From Paludibacteraceae bacterium (GTDB lineage: Bacteria > Bacteroidota > Bacteroidia > Bacteroidales > Paludibacteraceae), in the NCBI GenBank assembly GCA_017478225.1, contig JAFVDX010000002.1:124001-188000 (forward strand): DNA of 64,000 nt, read 5' to 3'. This document shows positions 34,329 to 59,824 of the stretch, piece by piece. Every line of letters starts with the position of its first letter. Positions within the stretch are counted from its first letter, which is position 1. Made by a program: the position numbers and the translations under genes. The notes beneath the pieces were generated by a model. That model was not told the origin of the DNA. It saw only the letters and a program-made list of their open reading frames with translations, and did not search any database.

Positions 34329-35480
34329 ATGAAAATAGAATTACATAAAATTACCGTTCGCGAGCTTACAGAAGACTACGTGGACAATCAGGAAGCGGGC
34401 GTGAAAGCCTATGGTGGTAAGTTAGACGTGCGTCCGCCGTTTCAGCGAGAGTTCGTCTATAGCGACAAGGAGCGTGACGCGGTAATTGACACCATTACGC
34501 AAGATTTTCCGCTCAATGTGATGTATTGGTCGGTAAACGATGACGGTACTTTTGAAATCATAGACGGTCAGCAACGCACGGTTTCTATTTGTCAATATGT
34601 AAATGGCGACTTTGCGCACTTGTTCCGATATTTCGACAATCTCACCAAAGAGGAGAAAGAACAGATTCTCAACTACGAACTCTATATCTACCGCTGCACG
34701 GGAACGGACACGGAGAAACTCAAGTGGTTCAAGACCATCAATATTGCCGGCAAGAAACTCACCAACCAAGAGTTGCTAAATGCCGTCTATGCTTCGCCGT
34801 GGCTGAGTGATGCCAAGCGGTATTTCTCCAAATCCAACTGCGGCGCATATCTTATGGGCAATAAATACCTTACCGGTTCGCCTATTCAGCAGGATTATTT
34901 GGAGACCGTGCTGCGTTGGGCTGCCGACTGCTCTGGAACGCGGTCGTCCTCGCCCGCAACAAACAACGGCATGCGGACGGGGACGTCCGCGTTCCCAATA
35001 ACTATTGAGCAATATATGGCTCAACACTCCATCAAAGATACTGACGCTACGGCTCTTTGGCTCTATTTCCAACAAGTCATCAATTGGGTGCAAGCCAAAT
35101 TCAAATACCGCTCTGTGATGAAAGGCGTGGATTGGGGTGCTATCTACAATAAATATGGGCAGGAACACATTAACATCGAGGAAATGGAGCATCGCATCTC
35201 TGCACTAATCCAAGACTCCGATGTCGGCAATCAGAAAGGCATTTATTGGTATGTGTTTGATGCCGATGAGCGGCACTTGCAAATCCGCGCGTTTGACGGA
35301 AACACCAAGCGTCGCCAGTATGAGAAACAGAAGGGTATCTGTCCTATTTGCGGCAAGCATTTCGAGATAGAGCAGATGGAAGCCGACCACATAACCCCAT
35401 GGTCGCAGGGCGGTCACACCACGCCGGATAACTGCCAGATGTTATGCCGCGATTGTAACAGGCGCAAAAGCAGCAAGTAA
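34329..35480 (+). CDS. DUF262-HNH nuclease A
   Basis: This 383-residue protein has an N-terminal DUF262 (GmrSD/ParB-like) domain with RPPFQREFVYSDKERDAVI near residue 37 and EIIDGQQRTVSI near 76. This domain hydrolyses NTP or DNA in characterised relatives. The C-terminal HNH domain (about 337-383) has CPICGKHF, ADHITPWSQGG and CQMLCRDCNRRK, so both zinc Cys pairs and the catalytic His are present. With the adjacent methylase it forms a plausible restriction-modification pair. Residues about 202-223 are encoded by a palindromic repeat inserted in frame. A homologue without the methylase is at 39959. Confidence 0.87.
   Translation: MKIELHKITVRELTEDYVDNQEAGVKAYGGKLDVRPPFQREFVYSDKERDAVIDTITQDFPLNVMYWSVNDDGTFEIIDGQQRTVSICQYVNGDFAHLFRYFDNLTKEEKEQILNYELYIYRCTGTDTEKLKWFKTINIAGKKLTNQELLNAVYASPWLSDAKRYFSKSNCGAYLMGNKYLTGSPIQQDYLETVLRWAADCSGTRSSSPATNNGMRTGTSAFPITIEQYMAQHSIKDTDATALWLYFQQVINWVQAKFKYRSVMKGVDWGAIYNKYGQEHINIEEMEHRISALIQDSDVGNQKGIYWYVFDADERHLQIRAFDGNTKRRQYEKQKGICPICGKHFEIEQMEADHITPWSQGGHTTPDNCQMLCRDCNRRKSSK
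34935..34995 (+). repeat. Palindromic element inserted in frame in nuclease A
   Basis: Arms at 34935-34957 and 34973-34995 (23 bases each, 20 of 23 complementary) enclose a 15-base loop. The insert is GC-rich compared with the gene and is translated as GTRSSSPA...MRTGTSAFP. The left arm is identical to bases of the leader cassette at 31808. The same insertion is present at the matching place in nuclease B (40571-40631). Confidence 0.85.
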
Positions 35481-39651: not shown

Positions 39652-39980
39652 AGCATTACTATTATTTCGCGTTTACCGAAAAGCCCGTCAAAGTTTAAGG
39701 AGATAAATAGCAAATAATCAGTAAAGGTTTCTGTGTATAGGATGCCTTAATCCAACTAATATAGATGTTTACGTTCTGTGTGAGTTTCTTAAGTTGGATG
39801 AGGTTTCCGTGACGGGCTGCCTTGGTACGCGATAAGAAACTCGCACTTTTTCTTATCGCATCTGCCGAAAATTTGTCAACAGAGAAAACTGAAGAAACTG
39901 AGAAAATACTCAGAGTTCTCCATATCTCTGTTGAAACAAGCAGAAGCCGATTGATAGTATGCGTAAAACCACTATCAATC
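39652..39980 (+). ncRNA. Structured RNA element, copy B
   Basis: It begins with the same 18 bases as copy A (AGCATTACTATTATTTCG). P1 pairs 39667-39677 with 39824-39832. P2 is AGCCCGTCA (39682-39690) with TGACGGGCT (39810-39818). P3 is ATCCAACT (39750-39757) with AGTTGGAT (39792-39799). The long-range pairing is 39778-39791 with 39833-39846 (14 pairs, one G-U). The competing 3' hairpin pairs GCGATAAGAAA (39829-39839) with TTTCTTATCGC (39849-39859). P1-P3 differ in sequence from copy A yet still pair, while the long-range strand is nearly unchanged. A hairpin GATTGATAGT/ACTATCAATC (39949-39980) again ends the element, here with the start codon in its loop. Confidence 0.75.
39876..39934. repeat. 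Inverted repeat inserted in RNA copy B
   Basis: TCAACAGAGA (39876-39885) pairs perfectly with TCTCTGTTGA (39925-39934). Copy A lacks these roughly 90 bases, so this is a later insertion of a palindromic repeat between the RNA and the gene. Confidence 0.6.
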
Positions 39981-41119
39981 TATATGGCATTCGCCCGAAA
40001 TACCAGTGGGAGTTCGTTTATGATGAAAAACAGCGCAATGCCGTAATGGACACTGTTTGGCAGAATTTTCCGCTGAATGTCATGTATTGGGTCAAAACAG
40101 AAGCATCCACAGATTTATCAGATTTAACAGAACAGAAATCTGGTTCATCTGTTCAATCTGTGGACAATATACAATACGAACTTTTGGATGGTCAGCAACG
40201 AACTATCTCCATCTGCTCGTTTATTGCAGGCGAGTACATGATGAACTTTGACGGAAACTTGCTCGGTTTCAATAATATGACCATTGAGCAGCAAAATCGC
40301 ATATTGGATTACAAACTACAAGTCTATATCTGCGAGGGAACGGATGAGGAAAAACTGCGTTGGTTTCAGCGCATCAACATTGCCGGCGAGAAACTCAAAG
40401 AGCAAGAGATTCGCAACGCTATCTATTCCGGTTCTTGGGTGACACAAGCCAAACGCCGTTTCTCCAAGACAGGCTGCGTGGCATACAAGATAGGTTCAGA
40501 CTTCATGGCTGGTTCGCCTATTCGGCAGGATTATTTTGAGACTGCTCTCCGTTGGATTGCCGACTATTATGGAACGCGGTCGTCTTCGCCTGCATCAGAA
40601 GATAATATGCGGACGGGGACGTCCGCGCTCCCAGTTACCATTGAGCAATATATGGCGCAACAGCAGCATGACACGGATGCTGACGAACTATGGCAGTACT
40701 ACCAAGACGTCATCCATTGGATAGAGAAACTCTTCGGGCATAAGTACAAAAAAGAGATGAAAGGTGTGCAGTGGGGACTGCTCTATAACAAGCATAAAGA
40801 AACCCCTTTAACCGCTACGGCTATCGGTGAGCAGATGGCTAAACTGATGGCGGACAGCGATTTACAGAAGAAAAGCGGTATTTTTACCTATATACTTGAC
40901 GGCGACATTCATCATCTGGGTATCCGTGCCTTTGATGCGAATACACGCCGTGAGGTCTATGAGCGGCAAGGCGATAAATGCGCAATCTGCGACAAGCATT
41001 TCGAGATAGAGGTTATGGAAGCCGATCATATCACACCGTGGGTGGAAGGCGGACGAACGATTGCTTCCAACTGCCAGATGCTCTGCCGCGCTTGCAATAG
41101 ACGGAAAAGCAGCAAATAG
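39959..41119 (+). CDS. DUF262-HNH nuclease B, methylase-less and N-terminally altered
   Basis: This 386-residue homologue of nuclease A has DGQQRTISI near residue 78, NIAGEKLKEQEIRNAIY and a C-terminal HNH domain with CAICDKHF, ADHITPWVEGG and CRACNRRK. The catalytic residues are intact. The first 28 or so residues of nuclease A have no counterpart, because similarity begins at GIRPKYQWEFVYDE. It has no adjacent methylase. Two palindromic inserts are read in frame (40107-40163 and 40571-40631). ATG 39959 lies in the loop of the upstream hairpin. It could use the methylase of unit A for protection, or be inactive. Confidence 0.8.
   Translation: MRKTTINLYGIRPKYQWEFVYDEKQRNAVMDTVWQNFPLNVMYWVKTEASTDLSDLTEQKSGSSVQSVDNIQYELLDGQQRTISICSFIAGEYMMNFDGNLLGFNNMTIEQQNRILDYKLQVYICEGTDEEKLRWFQRINIAGEKLKEQEIRNAIYSGSWVTQAKRRFSKTGCVAYKIGSDFMAGSPIRQDYFETALRWIADYYGTRSSSPASEDNMRTGTSALPVTIEQYMAQQQHDTDADELWQYYQDVIHWIEKLFGHKYKKEMKGVQWGLLYNKHKETPLTATAIGEQMAKLMADSDLQKKSGIFTYILDGDIHHLGIRAFDANTRREVYERQGDKCAICDKHFEIEVMEADHITPWVEGGRTIASNCQMLCRACNRRKSSK
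40107..40163 (+). repeat. Second in-frame palindrome, nuclease B only
   Basis: CCACAGATT (40107-40115) pairs with AATCTGTGG (40155-40163), and CAGATTT (40119-40125) with AAATCTG (40136-40142). The insert encodes a Ser/Thr-rich peptide between the YWV and YELLDGQQR segments that nuclease A lacks. Confidence 0.75.
40571..40631 (+). repeat. Palindromic element inserted in frame in nuclease B
   Basis: Arms at 40571-40593 and 40609-40631 correspond to those at 34935-34995 in nuclease A. The translation is GTRSSSPA...MRTGTSALP at the equivalent protein position (about residue 204). Confidence 0.85.
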
Positions 41120-47001: not shown

Positions 47002-48117
47002 ATGAAAAATATGATTGTATCCAAAACAAATCTGCATGAACTACTTTTTTGTACATTGTCATTTGTGTTATGTACATTAGTTGGTTGTATTAAGTTGCCT
47101 CAAGAGCAGCACACAAGTTATGACACTATTCAGTTGACTCGCCAGACCGTAACTGCTCCTCTAACATGGAGTGCTGCTATCCGCGGCACAGGGGATGTAT
47201 CTATTGTATCCCGTTGCACCGGTACACTAAAAGAGATTAAAGTGAAGGATGGTCAGAGTGTAAAAAAAGGTGACATACTTTTTCTTATTGACAGTCGCAG
47301 TGCTGAGAACGCCTTAGCACATGCGCGCGCTGATTTGCAGACTGCTATTGCCAATCGTGACAATGCACAATTGGAAGCAGATAGCAACAAAGAGTTGGCT
47401 GACCAAGGTATCATCAGCGATTATTTGCTTCGCATGAGTTTGAATATGCTTCAGTCGGCAGAGGCTCAAGTGTCTCAGGCTGAGGCAGCAGTGCGTGACG
47501 CTGAACTCCGTTTGGATTATTGCACTATCAAAAGTCCTGTTGATGGATTAGTGGGTAATATCATTCCTCATGTAGGCGATGTAATTGCTGAAGCAGATAT
47601 GCTTACGCGTATTGCAGGAGTGAAAGAGATGGAGGCAAGTTTCTCGCTTACTGAAAGTCAGATACATGCGCTTGTAAGCGAATTTGGCAACCTTGATAAA
47701 GTCATCAAAATCGCTCCCGCTCTTACATTGCGATTCAAAGAAGGTACAGAATACACAGAAAAAGGACATATAACTAGTTTTTCAGGTTTGATAGACCAGC
47801 GCACAGGTAGCATAACATGTTATGTAACCTTTCCTAATCCTAAGGGCGAATTGTTTTCAGGTATGCAAGGTACTGTGGTGATGCCTATTGAATGGGAGAA
47901 TGTTATTTTGGTTCCTCTGACATCAATAGTTCGTATTCAAGACAAAGCATTGGTGTATAAAGTTGGCGCTGATAGTTTAGCCACAAGTGCCATTGTCGAG
48001 ATTGAAGACTTGGGTGATGGTGAAAGGGCTGTCATACTCTCAGGTGCAGAAGTAGGCGAGACCATAGTTGCCAAAGGTGCTGCCAATGTGCACGAAAAGG
48101 ACAAAGTGATATATTAA
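47002..48117 (+). CDS. RND efflux periplasmic adaptor lipoprotein
   Basis: This 371-residue membrane-fusion protein of the AcrA type has its lipobox at LCTLVGC (Cys near residue 29). The first biotinyl-lipoyl half is GTLKEIKVKDGQSVKKGDILFLID, a coiled-coil hairpin lies at about 105-160, and the second lipoyl half is CTIKSPVDGLVGNI. Beta-barrel and membrane-proximal domains follow. It would link the inner-membrane pump to the outer-membrane factor. Its stop codon is the first of a chain of overlapping TAATG junctions that lead to the pump gene. Confidence 0.93.
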   Translation: MKNMIVSKTNLHELLFCTLSFVLCTLVGCIKLPQEQHTSYDTIQLTRQTVTAPLTWSAAIRGTGDVSIVSRCTGTLKEIKVKDGQSVKKGDILFLIDSRSAENALAHARADLQTAIANRDNAQLEADSNKELADQGIISDYLLRMSLNMLQSAEAQVSQAEAAVRDAELRLDYCTIKSPVDGLVGNIIPHVGDVIAEADMLTRIAGVKEMEASFSLTESQIHALVSEFGNLDKVIKIAPALTLRFKEGTEYTEKGHITSFSGLIDQRTGSITCYVTFPNPKGELFSGMQGTVVMPIEWENVILVPLTSIVRIQDKALVYKVGADSLATSAIVEIEDLGDGERAVILSGAEVGETIVAKGAANVHEKDKVIY

Positions 48118-48224: not shown

Positions 48225-51200
48225 ATGAAAGGTAATATATTTGTAGATAGAAAAGTGATGGCAGTTTGTATCTCTCTGCTTATTGCTTTAGTTGGCTTTA
48301 TTTGCCTAAAGACTCTGCCTATAGAGCAGTATCCTGATATTGCACCTCCTACCGTTATGATTTCCACTTCTTATACAGGAGCGGATGCCAATACGGTGAT
48401 GAAATCTGTTGTTATGCCAATAGAAGAGGCTGTTAATGGTGTGGAGAATATGGCATATATGACATCCGAAGCCAGTGCAACGGGTGAAGTAAGTATCAAT
48501 GTGTTTTTCAAGCAAGGCACCGACCCTGATATGGCGGCTGTCAATGTTCAGAACCGCGTGTCAGCGGCTTTAGGACTATTGCCGCAAGAGGTTACTCGTG
48601 TGGGTGTGAAGGTTGAGAAAAGACAAAATAACATATTGCAGATTGCAGCCTTGGTAAGCCGTGATGGTAAGTTCGACAATGACTTTATTGCTAACTATAT
48701 TGATATCAATGTTAAACCTCGATTGTTGCGTGTAACCGGTGTAGGTGCAGTTCAGAATTTGGGTAACACCTATTCACTGCGTATTTGGATGAAGCCTGAT
48801 GTGATGGCTCGTTATGGTCTTGACCCTCAGGATATATTTGCAGCCATCGGCAACCAGAATATGGTTGCAGCCACAGGTGCGCTTGGCGAGCAGAGCGGCA
48901 ACACTTATCAATATAACCTTGAGTACAAAGGACGCTTGCAGTCAATAGAAGAGTTCGAGTCAATAGTACTACGCACATCAAACGGCAATGTACTGCACCT
49001 AAGAGATGTAGCCGATGTGGAATTAGGTGCGCTCAGTTATAGTTTTTCATCCCGTGTGGATGGTCAGCCCGGTGTGGCATTTATTATCAATCAAGCCCCG
49101 GGAGCCAATGCAACACAAGTCAATGCCGCAATCAACGAACTTTATTCCTCGTTGCAAACCACAATGCCGGCTGGTCTGGAATTTACAATTCTTCAGACAA
49201 GTGACGACTTTTTGTATGCCGCTATACATAATGTGGTTGAAACCCTTATAATCGCTATTCTGCTTGTGATTTTGGTGGTTTATTTCTTCTTACAGAATTT
49301 CAAGGCTACCCTGATACCATCAATATCTATCATTGTTTCTTTACTGGGTACTTTTGCAGTGGTGAAAGTAGCAGGATTTTCACTTAATATCCTTACTCTC
49401 TTTGCATTGGTACTGGCTATAGGTACTGTGGTTGATGATGCCATTGTGGTTGTAGAAGCCGTAATGGCAAAGATGGAATCGGGTTACACCTCGGCTTATA
49501 AAGCGACCAAAGATGCGATGAGCGAAGTGACGGTAGCCGTGATTAGTTGTACCTTAGTGTTTATGGCTGTGTTTATCCCTGTAACCTTTATGCCCGGGAC
49601 AAGTGGTACTTTCTTCACTCAATTTGGTATTACGATTGCAAGTTCGGTAGGACTGAGTTGTATTTCTGCACTAACTCTATGTCCGGCATTGACGGCGGTG
49701 CTTTTCCGCCCGAAAAACGAATCGGAAGAAAAGAAAGGCAAGGGGCTGAACTATTGGGTTAAGACAGCATACGATGCAGCATATAATGCTATTCTTGGTA
49801 AATATAAGAATGGTGTATCTCGTTTTTTGCAAAAACCTCGTCGTGCATGGCTGTGGCTTTTGGCTGCTGTGGTAGCAATGGTACTCGCTATGCGTGCCCT
49901 TCCTGCCGGACTTGTACCGCAAGAAGACCAAGGAGTGATTATGGTGGATGTAACAGCACCCGCCGGTTCGCCGCTTGTTGAAACGGATAAGATAATGGCT
50001 GAGGTGGAAGAACATGTGCTTCGTTTAGAAGAAGTGGAGAGTTATGCTAAAATCTCCGGTTTCGGACTATTGTCGGGTACAGGCGTTAGTTATGGTACGC
50101 TTGTTATTCGTCTCAAACCATGGGATAAGCGTAAGGGATATGAGCACTATATTGATTATGTGATGGCCAAACTTTACTATTCATGTGAAGATATAAAAGA
50201 TGCTCAGATTATACCTTTCCAGATGCCGCAAATACCGGGATATGGTAATAGTGATGGTATAGACCTTCAGATGGAAGACTTGCAGGGTGGCGATATGTCT
50301 AAGTTCAACGAGGTGGTTAATAATTTCCTTGCTGAACTGCAGAAACGCCCCGAAGTGCAAATGGCGATGTCGCTCTACTCGGAGTCGTTCCCTAAATACA
50401 AAGTGGATGTCAATGCCACTCAATGTGATCGTGCAGGTATTTCGCCTGATGTGGTTCTCAATACTTTGGGTGCATATTGCGGTAGTGCTTATATCAGCAA
50501 TTTTAACCAATATGGCAAAGTATATCGCGTGATGGCCGGTGCTGCGCCGGAGTATCGTCTTGACCCTAACTCACTCAATAATATTTTTGTTCGTATAGGC
50601 GATGAGATGGCTCCTATATCTCAATTCATTACTCTCACACCTGCTGTTGGTTCTGCAACTCAAAAGCGATTCAACCTCTATCAGTCAATTGCATGCTCGG
50701 TTAAACCTAATAACGGCTTCAGCGAGGGGGATGTACAACGCATTATTGCCGAGGTTGCAAAAGACCATTTACCAACAGGCTATGGATATGAGTATGGTGG
50801 TATGAGTCGTGAGTTGGAAGCAAATAGTAAATCTAACCTGACAGGTATTATATATCTTGTTTGTATATTACTCATATATATGATTCTTGCTTCACTCTAC
50901 GAGTCTTTCTTTATCCCATTTGCAGTGCTACTATCTGTTCCTTTCGGTCTGATGGGCTCATTCGCATTCTCATGGCTTTGTGGACAACAGAATAACATAT
51001 ATCTGCAAACAGGTGTGATTATGCTTATTGGTCTGTTGGCTAAGACGGCTATATTGATTACAGAATTTGCAGTTGAAAAACGCAAACAAGGTATGCCTAT
51101 ACTTCAAGCGGCACTTGGCGCATGTGAAGATCGTCTGCGTCCTATCTTGATGACTGTAGTAACAATGATTGCCGGTATGATTCCGCTTATCATCGAAGGT

Positions 51201-52724
51201 GGCGCAGGAGCCAATGGTAACCGCGCGCTTGCTATCGGTGTAACTGGTGGTATGGCTGTAGGCACGCTTGCTCTTGTATTTGTAGTGCCGGCATTCTATA
51301 TCATATTCCAAAAACTACACGAGCGCTTCCAATCTGCACCGGAATTTCCGAATAATCAGAATATTCAGAATACTCCGATAGTTTTAGTTCTTGTATTATG
51401 TACTTTGATGCTCAGCAGTTGTGGGGTATTTAAGAAATACACACCTGCTCAGCAAGCTGCGCAGGACAGCATAGTATCAACTGTCAGTGAAGCAGATTGG
51501 CAATCGTATATACAAGACCCGCAGTTGCAGGGATATATCCAGAAAGCATTAGAAAACAATGTCGATTATCTTTCTCGTCAGTTGGCTATCAAAGAGGCCG
51601 ATGCTCGGCTTCGTGCTGCTCGGCTCGGTTATCTGCCTACCCTCGCCCTTAGTCCTGCAAGTGTTGGGGTGTCGGGTAGTATAACACCGGGCAGTGGTTC
51701 GTCGGGTGCAGTGCTTACCTATCAGGTACCTCTCTCGCTCAACTGGGGTGGTGAAGGCTTTGGTACAATCACCAATCGTAAACGACAAGCACAAGAATTG
51801 CGACTGCAAGCAGAAGACAATTTAGCAGCAGCACATGCTAATCTTGTGGCTACTATGGCAAGAGTTTATACACAACTGCAACTGCTCGACTACCAAGCCA
51901 TAATTCTTGATTCTACAGAAGTTATTTGGCAACGAGTATTAGAAGTACAAAATGTGTTGGTTAAGAATGGTCAGGCATATTCGCCTTCAATAGGACAGAT
52001 GGAAGCCTCACTTATCAATGTGCAAATACAACGCAAGCAACTCTTGGAGCAGATTCATTCCTTGGAACTGACAATGTGTCGTCTTATGAACGAGGAACCA
52101 CATGAGTTGTCGCGCTCACCATGGACCAGTTATTCGTTTGACACATGGACCATAGAGCCCATTCCTGCCGCTCAACTTAGTAATCGCGCAGATGTCAGAG
52201 CCGCAGAAAGAAATGTGGCTGTTGCATTCTATCAGACCAATATGGCAAAAGCCGCCTTCTGCCCTGCCCTATCGCTCTCAGGACTTATTGGATGGACAAA
52301 TAACGCCGGTGTCGTTGCCAATCCCGGTCAACTGCTGATGAATGCTGCATTGGGATTAGCACAGCCTATCTTTGCAGGAGGAAAACTGAAAGCAAATCTC
52401 AATATCGCCAAATTAGAACAAGAAGAAGCGGCAAATAGATATGTTGAGACAATGCTGCGTGCAGGTAGTGAAGTGAACGACGCTATCTTTCGTTGCAAAA
52501 ACGCACAAGAACAAGACGAACTTTATCAACGACTTCTCACCACTCAGCGTGAAGCATACAATGGAACATGCGAACTCATGAAGAAAGGCAAAGCATCATA
52601 TTTAGAGGTGCTCACTTCGCAAGAAAATTATCTCAAAGCACAACTTGCCGATGTAACTAACAGATATAATGGTCTTATAAGTCTCATAGACCTCTATGTG
52701 GCACTTGGTGGCGGAACAAGATAG
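48225..52724 (+). CDS. RND efflux pump fused to an outer-membrane factor
   Basis: Residues 1 to about 1030 are a complete HAE1/AcrB-type RND permease, with LKTLPIEQYPDIAPP, LAIGTVVDDAIVVVEAV (proton-relay Asp pair in TM4) and ILMTVVTMIAGMIPL. A short linker and a hydrophobic segment (VLVLVLCTLMLSSCG) follow. This is a full lipoprotein signal with Cys1066. Residues 1067-1499 are a TolC/OprM-type outer-membrane factor with two OEP repeats (YLSRQLAIKEADARLRAAR and later QPIFAGGKLKANL). No stop codon separates the parts. Usually these are two genes. I infer that signal peptidase II frees the factor after synthesis. Confidence 0.9.
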   Translation: MKGNIFVDRKVMAVCISLLIALVGFICLKTLPIEQYPDIAPPTVMISTSYTGADANTVMKSVVMPIEEAVNGVENMAYMTSEASATGEVSINVFFKQGTDPDMAAVNVQNRVSAALGLLPQEVTRVGVKVEKRQNNILQIAALVSRDGKFDNDFIANYIDINVKPRLLRVTGVGAVQNLGNTYSLRIWMKPDVMARYGLDPQDIFAAIGNQNMVAATGALGEQSGNTYQYNLEYKGRLQSIEEFESIVLRTSNGNVLHLRDVADVELGALSYSFSSRVDGQPGVAFIINQAPGANATQVNAAINELYSSLQTTMPAGLEFTILQTSDDFLYAAIHNVVETLIIAILLVILVVYFFLQNFKATLIPSISIIVSLLGTFAVVKVAGFSLNILTLFALVLAIGTVVDDAIVVVEAVMAKMESGYTSAYKATKDAMSEVTVAVISCTLVFMAVFIPVTFMPGTSGTFFTQFGITIASSVGLSCISALTLCPALTAVLFRPKNESEEKKGKGLNYWVKTAYDAAYNAILGKYKNGVSRFLQKPRRAWLWLLAAVVAMVLAMRALPAGLVPQEDQGVIMVDVTAPAGSPLVETDKIMAEVEEHVLRLEEVESYAKISGFGLLSGTGVSYGTLVIRLKPWDKRKGYEHYIDYVMAKLYYSCEDIKDAQIIPFQMPQIPGYGNSDGIDLQMEDLQGGDMSKFNEVVNNFLAELQKRPEVQMAMSLYSESFPKYKVDVNATQCDRAGISPDVVLNTLGAYCGSAYISNFNQYGKVYRVMAGAAPEYRLDPNSLNNIFVRIGDEMAPISQFITLTPAVGSATQKRFNLYQSIACSVKPNNGFSEGDVQRIIAEVAKDHLPTGYGYEYGGMSRELEANSKSNLTGIIYLVCILLIYMILASLYESFFIPFAVLLSVPFGLMGSFAFSWLCGQQNNIYLQTGVIMLIGLLAKTAILITEFAVEKRKQGMPILQAALGACEDRLRPILMTVVTMIAGMIPLIIEGGAGANGNRALAIGVTGGMAVGTLALVFVVPAFYIIFQKLHERFQSAPEFPNNQNIQNTPIVLVLVLCTLMLSSCGVFKKYTPAQQAAQDSIVSTVSEADWQSYIQDPQLQGYIQKALENNVDYLSRQLAIKEADARLRAARLGYLPTLALSPASVGVSGSITPGSGSSGAVLTYQVPLSLNWGGEGFGTITNRKRQAQELRLQAEDNLAAAHANLVATMARVYTQLQLLDYQAIILDSTEVIWQRVLEVQNVLVKNGQAYSPSIGQMEASLINVQIQRKQLLEQIHSLELTMCRLMNEEPHELSRSPWTSYSFDTWTIEPIPAAQLSNRADVRAAERNVAVAFYQTNMAKAAFCPALSLSGLIGWTNNAGVVANPGQLLMNAALGLAQPIFAGGKLKANLNIAKLEQEEAANRYVETMLRAGSEVNDAIFRCKNAQEQDELYQRLLTTQREAYNGTCELMKKGKASYLEVLTSQENYLKAQLADVTNRYNGLISLIDLYVALGGGTR

Positions 52725-52766: not shown

Positions 52767-53600
52767 ATGATAAGAAAGTATTTGCTTATTGCCATAGCGG
52801 TATTTATCACAACTTCCCTAATGGCACAGGAAAATCATATTGCAGAAGGTCTGGCCTCTGTTGCCGCTATCGCCGGCGAAACCAAAACGGCTGACTCGCC
52901 GCAAGATTCTGCCACAGTGGCAGCACCCAACATTCAACTGCCCAAATGGAAACAGAAACTCTATTTTGGCTATAATTTCGATATCTACTATCACAACGAC
53001 TCGCGTTCCAATCGCACAGAAAACGGATGGTCTATTTCATTAACACCGGAAGTAGGATGGAAAATAAATGAAAAGGTATATATAGGTATGCGTTTTGGTG
53101 GGACTTATTCAAATACAACCACCAATTACTCCATATCTGTTCTTGACACCTCCGTATATACCAACCTGCGAATCCACAATGGTTCTTGGGAAATAACTCC
53201 CTATGCACGCTATCGCCTCAAGACGCTCTTTAATGATAAGGTAGGTATATGGCTCGAAGCGCACCTATATACAGGAATGGAATTCCCTCGTGTAACTGAT
53301 GGTGATATAAAAGGAACTGATTATGATGGACTAAGACATAGCATCACCTATGGTGCTCAGGTCTCACCTGTGATTACATACCGCTTCAACCGCAAAAGCA
53401 CATTCCAGGTATTCTTCTCTATTCTCAGTTTTGGATATAGCGGAACTACTTTCTGCTATAAAGACCCTGATACGGGACAGCGCTACAACGAATACACTAA
53501 CGATGTGATTATATTCTCTGGTAAACTACGCAACTTACTTGCTAACCAATTTACGCCCGGTCTGTATGGCCTGAAATTCGGAGTCCAGAAAAATTTCTAA
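52767..53600 (+). CDS. Probable outer-membrane beta-barrel protein
   Basis: This 277-residue protein has a signal peptide ending TTSLMAQ and a low-complexity spacer rich in Ala, Thr and Asp to about residue 60. About eight to ten amphipathic strands follow, and the chain ends in a terminal Phe (GVQKNF), typical of outer-membrane barrels. I do not recognise the family. It lies 42 bases after the efflux gene and directly abuts the TamB-type gene, so it may be a client or partner of either. Confidence 0.65.
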   Translation: MIRKYLLIAIAVFITTSLMAQENHIAEGLASVAAIAGETKTADSPQDSATVAAPNIQLPKWKQKLYFGYNFDIYYHNDSRSNRTENGWSISLTPEVGWKINEKVYIGMRFGGTYSNTTTNYSISVLDTSVYTNLRIHNGSWEITPYARYRLKTLFNDKVGIWLEAHLYTGMEFPRVTDGDIKGTDYDGLRHSITYGAQVSPVITYRFNRKSTFQVFFSILSFGYSGTTFCYKDPDTGQRYNEYTNDVIIFSGKLRNLLANQFTPGLYGLKFGVQKNF

Positions 53601-56600
53601 ATGAGTAAAAGGAGCCTTTGGTGGAAAATGCCTCTTGCCATATTTGGTGTGGCAGTCGGGCTCGTTCTGCTTCTGTTAATAGCAGTAGCAGCGGTCGTTT
53701 CAACGCCATCAGCACGCATTGCCGTATTAGAAAAGGGAGTGGAGATAGCAAACAAAAAGACCGACTTTGACATAGACTTAGGCAAACTATATATCTCCCC
53801 TTTTCACCATTCTCCTATGGTGCTTTATCGCGCATGGAAAGGCACCGGTGACCTGCCTCTGCAAGTGGAGATTGACAGCCTTTTTGTAGGTCATCGAGGA
53901 CAAGACACATTGATTTATGTTCATGCACTACGACTTAGTGCCAAGGCGCTAACCGACAAAGCACAACCAACAATACAAGACGCCATTAATAACGGCAATT
54001 TCGCCGAACTCATGGGCTTGCCCATAGTGGTTGAACAACTCATGCTCAATAAGGCTACTTTCCACTCTGATAGTTTAATCGCCACAGTGGGAGTTGATGT
54101 ATTAGTTAATAATTTAGACTTATCAAGCCCCCAACTCAATATTCTCAAAGGACAATATCCTTTGAATGATTTGAAATTATCGGATGTGTTTGTTGGTATT
54201 GACTTGCGTGAGACTCCACCTGATACTACTGCTCAAAAAGAGCCTGCTCCACTACTCCTCTCATTCGATGTGCCTAATGGAGAACTGAGCAACATTCATT
54301 TCCAACTCACACCTATAGGACTCGACATTCAAACACGCCGTTTGTCTGTAGATGCTTTAGTGGATGTAGGAGGCAACCATTACGATGTCAACCGCATCAA
54401 CCTCGGCGGTGCTTCGATTGCAATAGGCTCGCTCCTCATACCTATTGACACTGTCCACGGCGGTGCCAATATTGACCTTGAAAAACAAATGATAACCTCA
54501 AAAGGTCTGTATGCACAATCCGACTCGTTTGGAGCCAAAGCAGATGTAACTGCTACTGCGCTTGATCTTCAAACCATGCGAATAGATGTAAAAGCAAATG
54601 CCAATTTCCGTGGCAGCATGGCACAAGTGCGTGGATACTACGATATCGATGACGAAGCATACGATGCTGTTGTTAATATTGAAAAAGTTGATCTAAGTCC
54701 CTTCCTCACAAACAATAAGCCAATAATAATTGCAGGCGAAATCAATGCTCAAGGCAAAGGCATTGACCCTCATTCCCGTGCAATGAAGAGCAATGTGAAA
54801 ATCCACATGACCGATTGCATATATGACAATATCAATGTTTCAGGAATAAAACTTGATGCCACACTCGCCGACAAAACCATTGATGGTAATTTACATCTGC
54901 CTATTGCCATCAACGATTCTTCTCTTCGTATTAAGGCTCTAACCAAACATCGTTTCCGAGTGTCCGACTTTCTTACACCCAAAAACATCGGCGTTGATTA
55001 TCATACAGATATGCACAACATCAATGCATCTGTAGCGGGCGAGAATTTTTCTGCTGAACATCTGACTCTGAATTTTACAACCGACAGCACAACCACACTC
55101 GACTTGGCTACTAAAGGATTAAATGTTGATATCAAAAGTCCTATGCATGTGCTCAAGTTAGTTGATGACATTCAGCCCTTTATAAAAGCAGTTGGAGACT
55201 CTACTCTTATCAATTCCATCGTAACGCTTCAAGACCTGACAATAATCGACACTCTTAGGCATCATTTACCTGATTTTGCCGCTAATATAAAACTCACCAA
55301 AGGAAGTCCCGCTCAACATATCATTCAGCGAATAGGACTTGATATCAACCAGATAGCATTGTCCGTATCTTCCGACTCAGTTGAAACCAATTTGGCATTA
55401 GACGCCTCAATACCCGAAATCAACCATCCTCAGGACAGCACTGCCCTGCGCCTGCCTGCCGCCAATGCTGACATTCAACTAAGGTTAAACGAAGGTACCA
55501 CCAATCTTTCTCTTGCGGCGCACTCTCGTCTTACCGATGGAGCAATGACATTGCACGACCTGAAAACGGACGCTTTATTACATTTCGATTTAGAGCGTAA
55601 CAACAACATAATCAATGGTAAAGGACGGCTCACTTTAGACAGTATTGTATTAGACACAACTAATATAGGTAACCGTTTTGTAGATATATCCGTTGCTCCA
55701 TCAAAACGTTATGCCAATACCATACGGGCAGATGTGAGTTTAGACGACATTCCGCTCGACATTGTAGATAGCATCATTCATGTGGCTGACCTTGACTTGA
55801 GCGGTTTGGTAAGAGCAAAAGCAAGTGCCGACGGACTGCCAAACAAATTTGACTTGTCTGCCAATGTATTGCCAATAGGTGTAGCGGCACAATACAAACC
55901 ATTCGAGGTAGGGCTGAGTCTTGGCCAAACACCTATTATCATGGAGCATAACCAATTAGACTTCAACGGATTGCCTATTTATGGTGCCGACAGCACATTT
56001 ATTGCTCTCACCGGAGGCCTGAATCTGGATAGCATGCGGCTCAATATTGCAATCCAAGCAGATAGTTTTGCACCGGTCAAATTGGTTAAAAACGGACCAA
56101 TACCGGTATATGGCGATTTGGCAACTGACATACACGGGACTGTAACCGGACCTCTCGATGATATTGTCGCTGATGTAGATGTTGACATATTACCTACTAC
56201 TGATATCACTTATCCTATTGATAAGAAAAACCTTGCACAAGTAAAGCCTTACGGAAAAGTCAATGTGCAATACAAAGTGGCCAATTCTGAACTCAACTTA
56301 GGCGGACAAGTTAATGTTGATGATGGATTTATTAGATATTCGCCCAAAGCCTACCCTATTATGCCTTTCCATGTAGATTCAGGTAGTAATATCTCTTTCC
56401 ATGGACCAATAGGCAAAACTAAACTCAATGTATCGGCATCTCAAAAAGTAAAAGCCGATGTTGAGTCCAAAGATGAGGAAACGCGTCGTGTGGATTTCAC
56501 AACTGGTGTACGCGTTAAAGGTGAAGTAGATTCGATAGGAATCAAATCCATCGGGTTCTTTCTTGAAGCACCAAACGACGAAACTGTTTCTCGAGAATTG

Positions 56601-58436
56601 GCTTCAGTAGATGAAGACACACGCGAAGGATTGGCTGCCACCCTGCTTGCTACAGGCATGTATGTAGGGGAAAGTAATGTGGCAGCACAACGCGATGGAT
56701 ATGCTCTCTCATCTATAATCAATAGCCGTATCAATGCCGCCATGGCAAATTCTAAATTAGGCAAGTTTATTGATATGGATATCAGTAGCGGACAAACCAA
56801 CCACGCTACAGGTAAAACTAACGACATGAATATCGCTATCAGCAAGTCGTTCTTCAAAGACAAACTACGGGTAACAGTAGGCTCTACTATATCCGACAAC
56901 CCCGAAATAAACAAGACCAACGGCCTTTTCACCAACCTCACAGCCGACTACAAACTAACCAAAGACGGCTCCGTTTTACTACGACTATTCTCACAACGCG
57001 ACTACAATAATATCCTTGAGGGTGAACTATATAAATCCGGTCTGAGCGTACTCGCTACCAAAGAATGGCGCCACCAAGAGTATTTCAGAGGGGACACTAT
57101 CTTCCGCACCTACGGATTAACAGCAGACGCTGGAGTGGCATATCGCTCCAATAATAGTATCGGACCTAACCTCACCATCAAATCATCTGTCAAAAACCTA
57201 CTTGGACGAGGTGAAACATTTACCATCAAAGGCAATGGCGCATACTATTGGGCACTAAGAAACAGACACCCGGGCGACCCAAAGAAAACAGATACTTACA
57301 AACTTGGTGTCAATACCGCTCTTGTGTTTCCTTATCTACATTGGAAAGGAAATAACAACCCTGACGGAGACACACGCTACTCTGTTGGCTATCAGTATGA
57401 AAATATAGCAGGAGGATATGGTCTGCATAAGATATCCGGGTCTTTAACCTATTTCATTCGCTCACCATTTAGCCCTTATATCGTTCATTCCTTCACACCT
57501 CTCTCTCTTACTGTGGTGCGCATGAAAGCCGAAGCAACCGACCTCTTGGATAAAGCAGCAGAATACCCACAACTAATCAATCTCTTGGCAGGTGATGAGT
57601 TCTCACCCGCAATTGGCTATACCTTTACATACAACAACTACCGATCCAATCGACCGGTTAACTCTATGATTGAATTAGGATTCAAAGAGTCAGGTAACCT
57701 CGTCAATGCAATCTATTGTGCATTCGGTCATAAATGGAATGAACAAAACAAACCATTAGGTGCTATCACCTACAATCAGTATGTTAAACTCACTGCCGAA
57801 CTGCGTAATAAATTCAATCTAACCGACAAAGTGAGTATCGCCACACGACTATACGCAGGAGCAAATATGCCGGTTGGTAACTCAGCCTTCTCCCCGCTTT
57901 CAGAGGCATTCTACACCGGTGGTCCCAACAGTCTGCGTGCATCTTCACCTTATGCCTACGGACCCGGCAATTTCTACTCCGCTAAATACAACCAAAACTT
58001 CTTCCATGCAGGTGATGTCAAGTTAGAAGCCAACTTCGAACTCCGATTCCCAATCGTATGGAAACTCTTTGGCGCTGTATTCGTGGACGCAGGTAATGTA
58101 TGGAACTGGCAAAGCCTCACAGATATACTGAAATCACACGGATTCGAAGATTATATCGAGAAATTAGAACTGCCCGAGGACCTAAACGATGGCATTATCA
58201 ATAATCCTAATTTTGCCAAACAAATAGCACTTGGTACAGGTGCTGGTCTGCGACTTGACCTCGACGGACTCGTTATTCGACTTGACATCGGTATTGGTAT
58301 CCACTCGCCTTATCAAACCTTCAAATATGATAAGTCCGGTAACCCCGACAAGACAAAACCTATAAACACTTATTTCAATATCCCTTCCGCTCTTGATGCC
58401 TTCCGCTTTAATTTCGGTATAGGATATCCATTCTGA
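53601..58436 (+). CDS. TamB protein fused to a TamA/BamA-type outer-membrane barrel
   Basis: This 1611-residue protein starts with an inner-membrane anchor (residues 10-32). About 1100 residues of AsmA/TamB-like beta-taco repeats follow, and then the DUF490 region with LASVDEDTREGLAATLLATGMY and NTxLGKFI-like segments near 1000-1090. From about 1170 the sequence changes to a barrel: DAGVAYRSNNSIGPNLTIKS, SLRASSPYAYGPGNF and, near the end, GDVKLEANFELRFPIVWKL with AVFVDAGNVWNW. These match the barrel of TamA/TamL-type Omp85 proteins. No POTRA domain is seen. TamB and TamL are normally separate proteins that meet across the periplasm, and here one chain would span both membranes. The ATG follows the preceding stop with no gap. 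Confidence 0.8.
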   Translation: MSKRSLWWKMPLAIFGVAVGLVLLLLIAVAAVVSTPSARIAVLEKGVEIANKKTDFDIDLGKLYISPFHHSPMVLYRAWKGTGDLPLQVEIDSLFVGHRGQDTLIYVHALRLSAKALTDKAQPTIQDAINNGNFAELMGLPIVVEQLMLNKATFHSDSLIATVGVDVLVNNLDLSSPQLNILKGQYPLNDLKLSDVFVGIDLRETPPDTTAQKEPAPLLLSFDVPNGELSNIHFQLTPIGLDIQTRRLSVDALVDVGGNHYDVNRINLGGASIAIGSLLIPIDTVHGGANIDLEKQMITSKGLYAQSDSFGAKADVTATALDLQTMRIDVKANANFRGSMAQVRGYYDIDDEAYDAVVNIEKVDLSPFLTNNKPIIIAGEINAQGKGIDPHSRAMKSNVKIHMTDCIYDNINVSGIKLDATLADKTIDGNLHLPIAINDSSLRIKALTKHRFRVSDFLTPKNIGVDYHTDMHNINASVAGENFSAEHLTLNFTTDSTTTLDLATKGLNVDIKSPMHVLKLVDDIQPFIKAVGDSTLINSIVTLQDLTIIDTLRHHLPDFAANIKLTKGSPAQHIIQRIGLDINQIALSVSSDSVETNLALDASIPEINHPQDSTALRLPAANADIQLRLNEGTTNLSLAAHSRLTDGAMTLHDLKTDALLHFDLERNNNIINGKGRLTLDSIVLDTTNIGNRFVDISVAPSKRYANTIRADVSLDDIPLDIVDSIIHVADLDLSGLVRAKASADGLPNKFDLSANVLPIGVAAQYKPFEVGLSLGQTPIIMEHNQLDFNGLPIYGADSTFIALTGGLNLDSMRLNIAIQADSFAPVKLVKNGPIPVYGDLATDIHGTVTGPLDDIVADVDVDILPTTDITYPIDKKNLAQVKPYGKVNVQYKVANSELNLGGQVNVDDGFIRYSPKAYPIMPFHVDSGSNISFHGPIGKTKLNVSASQKVKADVESKDEETRRVDFTTGVRVKGEVDSIGIKSIGFFLEAPNDETVSRELASVDEDTREGLAATLLATGMYVGESNVAAQRDGYALSSIINSRINAAMANSKLGKFIDMDISSGQTNHATGKTNDMNIAISKSFFKDKLRVTVGSTISDNPEINKTNGLFTNLTADYKLTKDGSVLLRLFSQRDYNNILEGELYKSGLSVLATKEWRHQEYFRGDTIFRTYGLTADAGVAYRSNNSIGPNLTIKSSVKNLLGRGETFTIKGNGAYYWALRNRHPGDPKKTDTYKLGVNTALVFPYLHWKGNNNPDGDTRYSVGYQYENIAGGYGLHKISGSLTYFIRSPFSPYIVHSFTPLSLTVVRMKAEATDLLDKAAEYPQLINLLAGDEFSPAIGYTFTYNNYRSNRPVNSMIELGFKESGNLVNAIYCAFGHKWNEQNKPLGAITYNQYVKLTAELRNKFNLTDKVSIATRLYAGANMPVGNSAFSPLSEAFYTGGPNSLRASSPYAYGPGNFYSAKYNQNFFHAGDVKLEANFELRFPIVWKLFGAVFVDAGNVWNWQSLTDILKSHGFEDYIEKLELPEDLNDGIINNPNFAKQIALGTGAGLRLDLDGLVIRLDIGIGIHSPYQTFKYDKSGNPDKTKPINTYFNIPSALDAFRFNFGIGYPF

Positions 58437-58459: not shown

Positions 58460-59824
58460 ATGGTACATGATTTATACATTTTAATGATTACGGCAGGCGT
58501 TGTAAGTCTGCTCTTTAAGTTGCTCAAGCAACCGGTTGTGTTAGGTTATATTGTAGCCGGTATTTTGGTCGGTCCAAACTTGTTTGGAGAAAATTGGGTA
58601 AATCCTGAAAATGTTGAGGCATGGGGAAATATCGGAGTGCTGTTTGTACTTTTCTGTATTGGTCTTGAGTTCCGTATTAAAAATCTGTTTGAAAGCGGTA
58701 AAGTAGCACTTATAGGTGCTGCAACCATTATCTTGGGCATGCTGTTGTTAGGCTTTGGCGTTGGGCGTTCCGCTGAATTGGATACTATGAACTCTCTCTT
58801 TTTGGCGGCCATGCTATGTATGTCTTCCACAACCATCGTAATGAAGGCAGTTGACGAAGCAGGGCTCAGTAAGGAACGCTTTGTGAAAGGTGCCACGGGT
58901 ATTCTTATTTTAGAAGATATTGTGGCAGTTGTGTTGATGGTCCTGCTTTCAAGTATTGCAGTCAAAAATAGTTTAGATGGCGTAGAACTACTAAAAAAAG
59001 TGGGAATACTTGCTCTCACACTTGTAATATGGTTTGTTTGCGGCATACTTATTATTCCCACACTGCTCAGAAAAGTACGCCCATATCTCAACGATGAACT
59101 ATTGATTATTCTTGCACTCGGTCTGTGTCTTGGTATGGTACTAACAGCCGAAGAAGCCGGGTTCAGCAGCGCACTTGGTGCTTTTGTTATGGGTATGATA
59201 CTTGCCGAAACACTTGAATCACATCGTATTGAACACCTTATGGCCCCGCTTAAAAATGTTTTCGCCGCTATTTTCTTTGTGTCGGTTGGTATGATGATCA
59301 ATCCATCGTCTTTAGTAACATATTGGTCCTCGATACTTTATGTTTCTGTTGTTGTCATCGTTGGCATGATTATCTTTGGTACTCTCGGCTGCTGGTGGGG
59401 AGGCGCTACGCTCAAAGACTCTATGCTCACCGGTTTCTCATTTGTGCAAATAGGAGAGTTCTCATTCATCATCGCAGCCTTAGGTGGCAAATTAGGAGTT
59501 ACCGACCCCGTCATCTACCCTATCATCGTCGCAGCCAGCGTACTCACTACTTTCCTCACTCCATATATCATGAAGGCTGCTGTACCATGTTATGATTTCA
59601 TCTACAAGCACTCGTCACCACGCATTCGCGAAAAAATCGACAAACGCGAACAAAAGGTGCTACAAGCAGAGCAAGCAGCATCAATCAATGACGACAACAC
59701 CAATCCGTCTTCTGCTGACAAAGTGCGTCATGCCGTTCGCCGCACTATTGTAACTAAACGGCTCGTGGACCTGTTCTTCAAGAATATGAGTGAAAACGAT
59801 AGACCTAAAGATAAAAACAATTAA
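58460..59824 (+). CDS. CPA2-family cation:proton antiporter (KefB-like)
   Basis: This 454-residue membrane protein has about 12 transmembrane helices. Family signatures are QPVVLGYIVAGILVGP near residue 24, VLFVLFCIGLEF near 60, LEDIVAVVLMVLL near 150 and AEEAGFSSALGAFVMGMILAET near 232. The cytoplasmic tail of about 65 residues has no RCK/TrkA-N domain. Potassium or sodium exchange is possible. It lies 24 bases after the TamB fusion gene, with no evident functional link. Confidence 0.92.
   Translation: MVHDLYILMITAGVVSLLFKLLKQPVVLGYIVAGILVGPNLFGENWVNPENVEAWGNIGVLFVLFCIGLEFRIKNLFESGKVALIGAATIILGMLLLGFGVGRSAELDTMNSLFLAAMLCMSSTTIVMKAVDEAGLSKERFVKGATGILILEDIVAVVLMVLLSSIAVKNSLDGVELLKKVGILALTLVIWFVCGILIIPTLLRKVRPYLNDELLIILALGLCLGMVLTAEEAGFSSALGAFVMGMILAETLESHRIEHLMAPLKNVFAAIFFVSVGMMINPSSLVTYWSSILYVSVVVIVGMIIFGTLGCWWGGATLKDSMLTGFSFVQIGEFSFIIAALGGKLGVTDPVIYPIIVAASVLTTFLTPYIMKAAVPCYDFIYKHSSPRIREKIDKREQKVLQAEQAASINDDNTNPSSADKVRHAVRRTIVTKRLVDLFFKNMSENDRPKDKNN

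Follow-up and report, generated by a model that had tools for sequence, protein, structure and literature searches.

The gene at positions 53601–58436 (+) of the window, the 64 000-nucleotide stretch of a Paludibacteraceae genome analysed here, encodes TamB and an Omp85 barrel in one polypeptide of 1611 amino acids, as the initial annotation had proposed. It is a conserved fusion of single origin, and it lacks both the POTRA domains and the segment of TamB that holds the loop on which they dock. Taken as a whole, the evidence is likely to be best explained by a one-chain TAM derived from tamB2–tamL2, which would adopt the hybrid-barrel state and carry lipid or another hydrophobic cargo.

The single reading frame extends from the ATG at 53601 to the stop codon at 58436. 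An anchor-like hydrophobic stretch of 24 residues (about 10–33; 53628–53699, +) can be read in the sequence, in keeping with the N-terminal membrane anchor of the initial annotation, and the N-terminus of TamB2 aligns from residue 20. It is followed by the TamB2-type periplasmic part (beta-taco/DUF490, residues 34–1004; 53700–56612, +), defined by hhalign comparison with TamB2 and, from residue 700 on, by strands of an AF2 model. The model then places helices (306–319, 328–331 and 335–351 in its own numbering; 56613–56750, +) and six TamB C-terminal strands, A–F (residues 1057–1159; 56769–57077, +), which are homologous to the final TamB2 strands. Unlike a standalone TamB, which ends there, the chain runs past these pseudosubstrate strands. 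A junction turn (residues 1160–1167; 57078–57101, +), recognized from the model, the junction alignment and conservation, connects TamB strand F with strand 1 of the barrel. The rest is a 16-strand Omp85 barrel of the TamL2 type (residues 1168–1611; 57102–58433, +), identified by Pfam, NCBIfam, AF2, structure alignment and a tree. It contains the motif GGPNSLRAS (residues 1440–1448; 57918–57944, +), comparable to GGANSIRAF in 14 of 19 TamL2 proteins. We take this motif to be of the Omp85 loop-6 type.

The DUF490 label of the initial annotation is right in substance, although the Pfam TamB/DUF490 model (PF04357) gives no match to the protein of the window, not even at E ≤ 10. The label can be kept because the same model matches two divergent fusion orthologues (G433, 64.8 bits; G621, 66.9 bits; cut-off 22.4) and because the profile–profile match to TamB2 is unambiguous. 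When five fusions were aligned with six TamB2 proteins by hhalign, residues 20–1146 matched TamB2 residues 17–1514 (P 100, E 5.7e-62). With 82 fusions against nine TamB2 proteins the E-value is 9.1e-78; these 82 are the window protein, 78 of 80 loci (at least 1450 amino acids, ending in GYPF) and the orthologues G433, G621 and G631. Barrel strands and taco strands could not be told apart by their amphipathicity; as proof that strands A–F are inserted in the membrane this measure is uninformative, since taco strands score the same.

In the barrel half, the Pfam Omp85 model (PF01103) matches residues 1199–1611 (E 5.6e-18). The NCBIfam model lipo_TamL (NF052279) aligns with residues 1171–1611 through its positions 336–747 of 747, that is, through its barrel half only, and the score of 308 bits lies below the whole-protein cut-off of 400. 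No POTRA model matches the fusion protein at E ≤ 1, whereas POTRA domains were matched in the unfused TamL1 of the same genome and in a TamL2 of another genome; the absence of POTRA domains, already remarked in the initial annotation, is thus borne out. Neither the lipo_TamL profile nor the junction alignment revealed a lipoprotein signal of the TamL type.

Residues 700–1611 were modelled with AF2 from an alignment of 80 rows, which used 79 of the 80 loci (L083, whose frame ends early, was omitted). The model (pLDDT 74.3, pTM 0.52, with confidence falling below 50 at the extreme C-terminus and in several loops) shows, in order, taco strands, helices, six strands (1057–1159), an eight-residue turn (1160–1167) and 16 barrel strands (1168–1607). 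A single-sequence AF2 prediction of residues 901–1611 reached a pLDDT of 30 and was set aside. In a VIA-align comparison, BamA and TamA made up most of the best 50 PDB entries, which also included FhaC and chains of mitochondrial SAM (Z 15.3–17.0). The barrel-only crystal structure of TamA aligned with model residues 473–912, and barrel-only rows start at model residue 458–474 or so. The 16 strands and the structural match to TamA and BamA barrels (Z 15–17) confirm the predicted Omp85 barrel and exclude the possibility, raised with the initial annotation, that the last 440 residues are something else.

Searching the GTDB genome collection yielded 136 relatives; the 80 best were analysed. A single open reading frame covers the TamB part and the barrel in all 80 loci; the frame of L083 stops early, at the position corresponding to residue 1550, and a few loci are short at the N-terminus owing to contig ends or start choice. 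Four further orthologues, compared over their full length, are also in a single frame. In seven close pairs, dN/dS is 0.03–0.20 across the TamB part, the junction and the barrel where computable (the TamB part is saturated in one pair), with 0.03–0.17 at the junction. Conservation is lowest in the junction turn (mean majority-residue fraction 0.67 versus 0.78–0.88 elsewhere), whose flanks contain residues invariant in all 80 rows: E1140, G1141, L1143, K1145, G1147, W1156, R1182 and N1184. The record titles of the 80 loci name uncultured Bacteroidales, Paludibacteraceae and other Bacteroidota, nearly all of them MAGs or isolates of metagenome bins; the sampling sites, where given, are mostly ruminant stomachs.

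Outside the fusion genomes, a TamB-like frame of about 1490–1630 amino acids is followed by a TamL of about 770–820 amino acids, often with overlapping ends. These gene pairs are the TamB2–TamL2 operon of PMC12045153, which, in the excerpted text of that study, is reported from 20 of 30 species surveyed. In a barrel tree of 60 rows (L018, L185 and L206–L208 were omitted because of a cut frame or because they were already represented), 10 fusions are monophyletic (100/100) within a clade that includes 19 TamL2 proteins (100/100), separate from the TamL1 of the window's genome. Since the fusions form one clade inside the TamL2 clade, a single origin from TamB2–TamL2 is most likely. In the junction alignment, TamB2 chains stop shortly beyond the strand whose last residue is 1159, homology to TamL2 begins at barrel strand 1, and the signal, lipobox and POTRA domains of TamL2 have been dropped. 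The genome of the window also carries an ordinary separate tamB, an ordinary tamL of 755 amino acids with a lipobox, and BamA. A second tamL, which the initial annotation had left to be checked, is therefore present in full length, and the fusion is an additional TAM of the TamB2/TamL2 type, not the only TAM of this genome.

As to distribution, which the initial annotation had also singled out, 5 of 295 Bacteroidales genomes contain the fusion among the matches listed; elsewhere TamB2 and TamL2 are separate. In the family of the window (f1), 11 of 150 genomes have it as one frame over the TamB C-terminus and the barrel. There are 21 such genomes among 99 in family f2, two of them with the fusion in shorter frames of 781 and 1139 amino acids, and two further f2 genomes contain a frame-split or contig-edge copy. 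Family f101 has four in 100 genomes, plus one contig-edge copy. The fusion is thus spread over three Bacteroidales families and is patchy within genera. Some genomes contain two different copies (L062 and L117 in UBA1180; L169 and L170 in G529). No independent fusion was detected in 395 Bacteroidia genomes at E ≤ 1e-60 or in 296 genomes of the phylum at E ≤ 1e-25, searches in which the window's own genome alone has a fusion and which fusions diverged beyond these thresholds would escape. Nor is there another long barrel frame among the matches listed for the 295 Bacteroidales genomes and families f1, f2 and f101.

In a tree of 29 fusions, G101 and G286 of family f101 are nested within the f2 fusions (100/99); the placement of the long branches G621 and G433 is unsure. 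The fusion is more alike than RpoB in 12 of 52 f101–f2 pairs (the RpoB of G425 was left out of the comparison). Phylogeny and pairwise similarity together demonstrate cross-family transfer between f2 and f101 only, because RpoB is always the more alike in the f1–f2 (130) and f1–f101 (40) pairs. The case of G101/G286, on contigs of 299–325 kb, is firmer than that of G488, a weak one with an 8 kb contig from a MAG with 4 per cent contamination.

The joint can be compared with the cryo-EM structure of E. coli TamAB, as described in the excerpted text of PMC12800296. There the C-terminal domain of TamB consists of two helices and six strands. In about half of the particles the last of these strands is paired with strand 1 of TamA, in what is called a hybrid-barrel state; a semi-closed, non-hybrid state likewise accounts for about half. 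The fusion has the same order of helices and six strands, followed by the short turn and barrel strand 1, with TamB strand F covalently adjacent to strand 1. According to the model, strand 1 of the fusion is thus continuous with the strand that is its pairing partner in E. coli. An AF-Multimer prediction for TamL–TamB of F. johnsoniae, as presented in PMC12045153, is a hybrid barrel of 22 strands (16 + 6) with pairing to the last TamL strand.

The fusion has also lost part of TamB. Between conserved anchors at residues 870 and 885 there are 14 residues in 82 of 82 fusions (residues 871–884; 56211–56252, +), compared with 72–79 in nine of nine TamB2 proteins and 74 in the TamB1 of the same genome. 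About 60 TamB residues are therefore missing, and they hold the docking loop for POTRA1 and POTRA2: the E. coli coupling loop 998–1012, which PMC12800296 reports to be bound by these two domains, aligns inside the missing segment (hhalign of E. coli TamB with TamB2, P 95.6, E 1.2e-8; MAFFT). The mapping was made through TamB2 because hhalign gave no significant match between E. coli TamB and either the TamB1 of this genome or the fusion; a PDB sequence search with this TamB1 found nothing. As a counterpoint, 11 gaps of at least 10 residues were counted (388 residues missing overall), of which this is one; it is, however, the largest, and it alone is situated that far into the C-terminal domain, the other ten being nearer the N-terminus. 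Alignment and length comparison make it evident that the POTRA domains and the TamB segment with their docking loop have both been lost. The suggestion of the initial annotation that the fusion makes the POTRA contact unnecessary gains support, since the TamB side of this contact is missing too.

Several known systems share features with the fusion. The overlapping F. johnsoniae genes for TamB2 and TamL2 (Fjoh_1899/Fjoh_1900), as far as described in PMC12045153, represent the same families in the same order, TamB then TamL. They differ in encoding two proteins, a TamL2 with lipoprotein signal and POTRA domains and a TamB2 of about 1490–1627 amino acids with the coupling-loop segment, whereas the fusion is one gene and one chain with no lipobox, POTRA or coupling-loop segment. 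E. coli TamAB, in the account of PMC12800296, has a similar anchor, taco, C-terminal helices and six strands, the last beside strand 1, but the complex is non-covalent, has two states and binds TamB through three POTRA domains, POTRA1 and POTRA2 via the coupling loop. In the Borrelia BamA–TamB hybrid, an AF3 model presented in PMC13382580, the six C-terminal strands of TamB are likewise predicted to join BamA strand 1, but the proteins are separate and BamA has five POTRA domains. Type Vd autotransporters (PlpD) are described as having an N-terminal partner naturally fused to a 16-strand Omp85-type barrel; unlike the fusion, they secrete a passenger and keep a POTRA domain. We know of no inner-membrane anchor in these autotransporters.

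The neighbourhood was compared in the 80 loci and the window. An antiporter cluster occurs in 34 of 81 neighbourhoods and an RND cluster in 10 of 81; at these frequencies neither is a constant neighbour, and neither defines the function of the fusion. Directly upstream in the window is Bar277, a small secreted barrel-like protein (52767–53600, +) whose stop codon abuts the ATG of the fusion. Of the 73 loci whose upstream sequence extends over 900 bp or more, 40 have it in this position, on the same strand, and it is commoner than both clusters. In family f1, strong Bar277 hits were found in 7 of 11 fusion genomes versus none of 139 others (Fisher p 1.1e-9; 8.8e-9 when a weak hit, E 3.7e-12, in an f1 genome without the fusion is counted). 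Family f2 has Bar277 in one of 99 genomes, G488, directly upstream of its fusion. Bar277 may be a partner or client of the fusion in family f1. It is not required by the fusion, since f2 fusion genomes apart from G488 are without it, and, absent from nearly all f2 genomes, it does not define the function either.

The following mechanism can be proposed. A tamB2–tamL2 operon would have become one gene, in which TamB2 ran from its end straight into barrel strand 1 of TamL2, the lipoprotein signal and POTRA domains being dropped and the POTRA-docking loop of TamB lost as well. The N-terminal helix would anchor the protein in the inner membrane, the hydrophobic groove of the taco would span the periplasm and the chain would end in the outer-membrane barrel; its sequence features suggest anchoring in both membranes. 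Because strand 1 is tied to the last TamB strand by a short turn, the fusion would be held in the hybrid-barrel state that E. coli TamAB visits transiently, and phospholipid or another hydrophobic cargo would be delivered along the groove to the barrel seam. It would work alongside the ordinary TamB/TamL pair kept by the cell. The hybrid-barrel geometry is somewhat probable; a closed barrel of 22 strands has against it that in E. coli, according to PMC12800296, TamA strand 16 makes no contact with TamB and TamB strands 3–6 lie in the lumen. A lipid cargo is possible rather than probable. The E. coli authors associate phospholipid transport with the hybrid state and OMP insertion with the non-hybrid one, and describe a lipid-like density in the groove of TamAB (PMC12800296). 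If TamB cannot be released from strand 1, the fusion should be biased towards the hybrid, phospholipid-transporting state. The counter-evidence comes from F. johnsoniae, where the authors, in the text of PMC12045153 consulted, argue against a lipid role and find no support for TamL in lipid transport.

The alternatives concern the gene, its product and its function. An error of sequencing or assembly that joined two genes, a concern raised with the initial annotation, or a decaying fusion is extremely improbable. All loci are from MAG or draft contigs, and one copy (G534) is split between frames, but the 80 loci and 36 genomes of the three surveyed families carry the fusion, and a simple frame error could not remove a signal peptide and POTRA domains. 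The 80 single frames together with the low dN/dS rule out a frame error or assembly join, and dN/dS of 0.03–0.20 rules out a degenerate gene. It is very unlikely that the protein is made as a polyprotein and cut near the joint into an ordinary TamB and a barrel devoid of POTRA domains. The poor conservation of the junction turn would fit such a cut; the linker, however, is short, there is no second signal sequence, the flanks contain residues invariant in all rows, dN/dS at the junction is 0.03–0.17, and the loss of the POTRA-docking segment suggests that the fusion relies on the covalent link.

For an intact chain, the barrel might close as a 16-strand Omp85, with the six TamB strands as a periplasmic extension of the taco and the joint as a tether only, with no hybrid barrel. 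The semi-closed, non-hybrid half of the solved TamAB particles (PMC12800296) is compatible with this, and amphipathicity does not tell the two strand kinds apart; nevertheless, we regard it as rather unlikely, given how short the turn is and that it joins exactly the two strands found paired in the hybrid structure of TamAB. Still less likely is a machine for OMP assembly, made in one piece and having its own client or partner, which would insert Bar277 and perhaps other barrels as TAM does with Ag43. It would account for Bar277 directly upstream in 40 of 73 loci, for the confinement of strong f1 hits to fusion genomes and for the only f2 copy adjoining the G488 fusion, but not for the lack of Bar277 in the other f2 fusion genomes or for the disappearance of the POTRA domains and docking loop; moreover, strand 1, if occupied by TamB strand F, would offer no free edge to the beta-signal of a client. 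The specific proposal that we favour, tentatively, is a single-chain TAM locked in the hybrid-barrel state, in which, with the last TamB strand running on into barrel strand 1, the POTRA domains and the docking loop became dispensable and were lost together. A TAM devoid of POTRA domains is unexpected, because in the E. coli strain used in PMC12800296 deletion of POTRA2 was reported to be lethal and that of POTRA1 or POTRA3 to impair growth. If this proposal is correct, the state visited by E. coli TAM about half of the time suffices alone for a useful function, most probably the delivery of lipid and not the insertion of OMPs, and the gene encodes an accessory bridge across the envelope that is spreading among Bacteroidales of the rumen.

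No description of a TamB–Omp85 fusion was found in the open-access literature (PMC), a scope outside which most subscription papers and preprints fall; the words 'fused' and 'fusion' are absent from PMC4494059, PMC12800296, PMC13382580 and PMC12045153. The handover of cargo from TamB to the outer membrane, and whether this cargo is lipid or protein, are disputed; a review (PMC11014939, in the part consulted) presents as debated the way in which lipids pass the POTRA domains. In the fusion, evolution has removed the POTRA domains and the docking-loop segment and fixed TamB to barrel strand 1. It lends independent support to the hybrid barrel as a functional state, and constitutes a natural test of the docking of the TamB bridge and of its cargo. 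For structural studies, and for telling apart the two functions proposed for TAM, it provides a single protein.

The window contains a second fusion of envelope proteins. An open reading frame of 1499 amino acids (48225–52724, +) combines an RND permease of the AcrB type (residues 4–1028) with an OMF of the OEP/NodT type (from about residue 1060), with a stretch resembling a lipoprotein signal at the joint. Two inner–outer membrane fusions are thus found in one gene cluster, which consists, on the forward strand, of an adaptor (47002–48117), the RND–OMF fusion, Bar277, the TamB–TamL fusion and a cation:proton antiporter (58460–59824). RND–OMF frames of 1504–1512 amino acids (88–90 per cent identity) lie near or adjoining the TamB–TamL fusion in L055, L056, L070, L109 and L212, and copies cut by the contig or region end are present in L093 and L214. 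The members of the cluster recur in shuffled order in related genomes, for example as antiporter, Bar277, adaptor, RND–OMF and TamB–TamL fusion in L212. Elsewhere in the window, two proteins similar to each other are encoded at 34329–35480 and 39959–41119 (+); their C-terminal part is presumably HNH-like.
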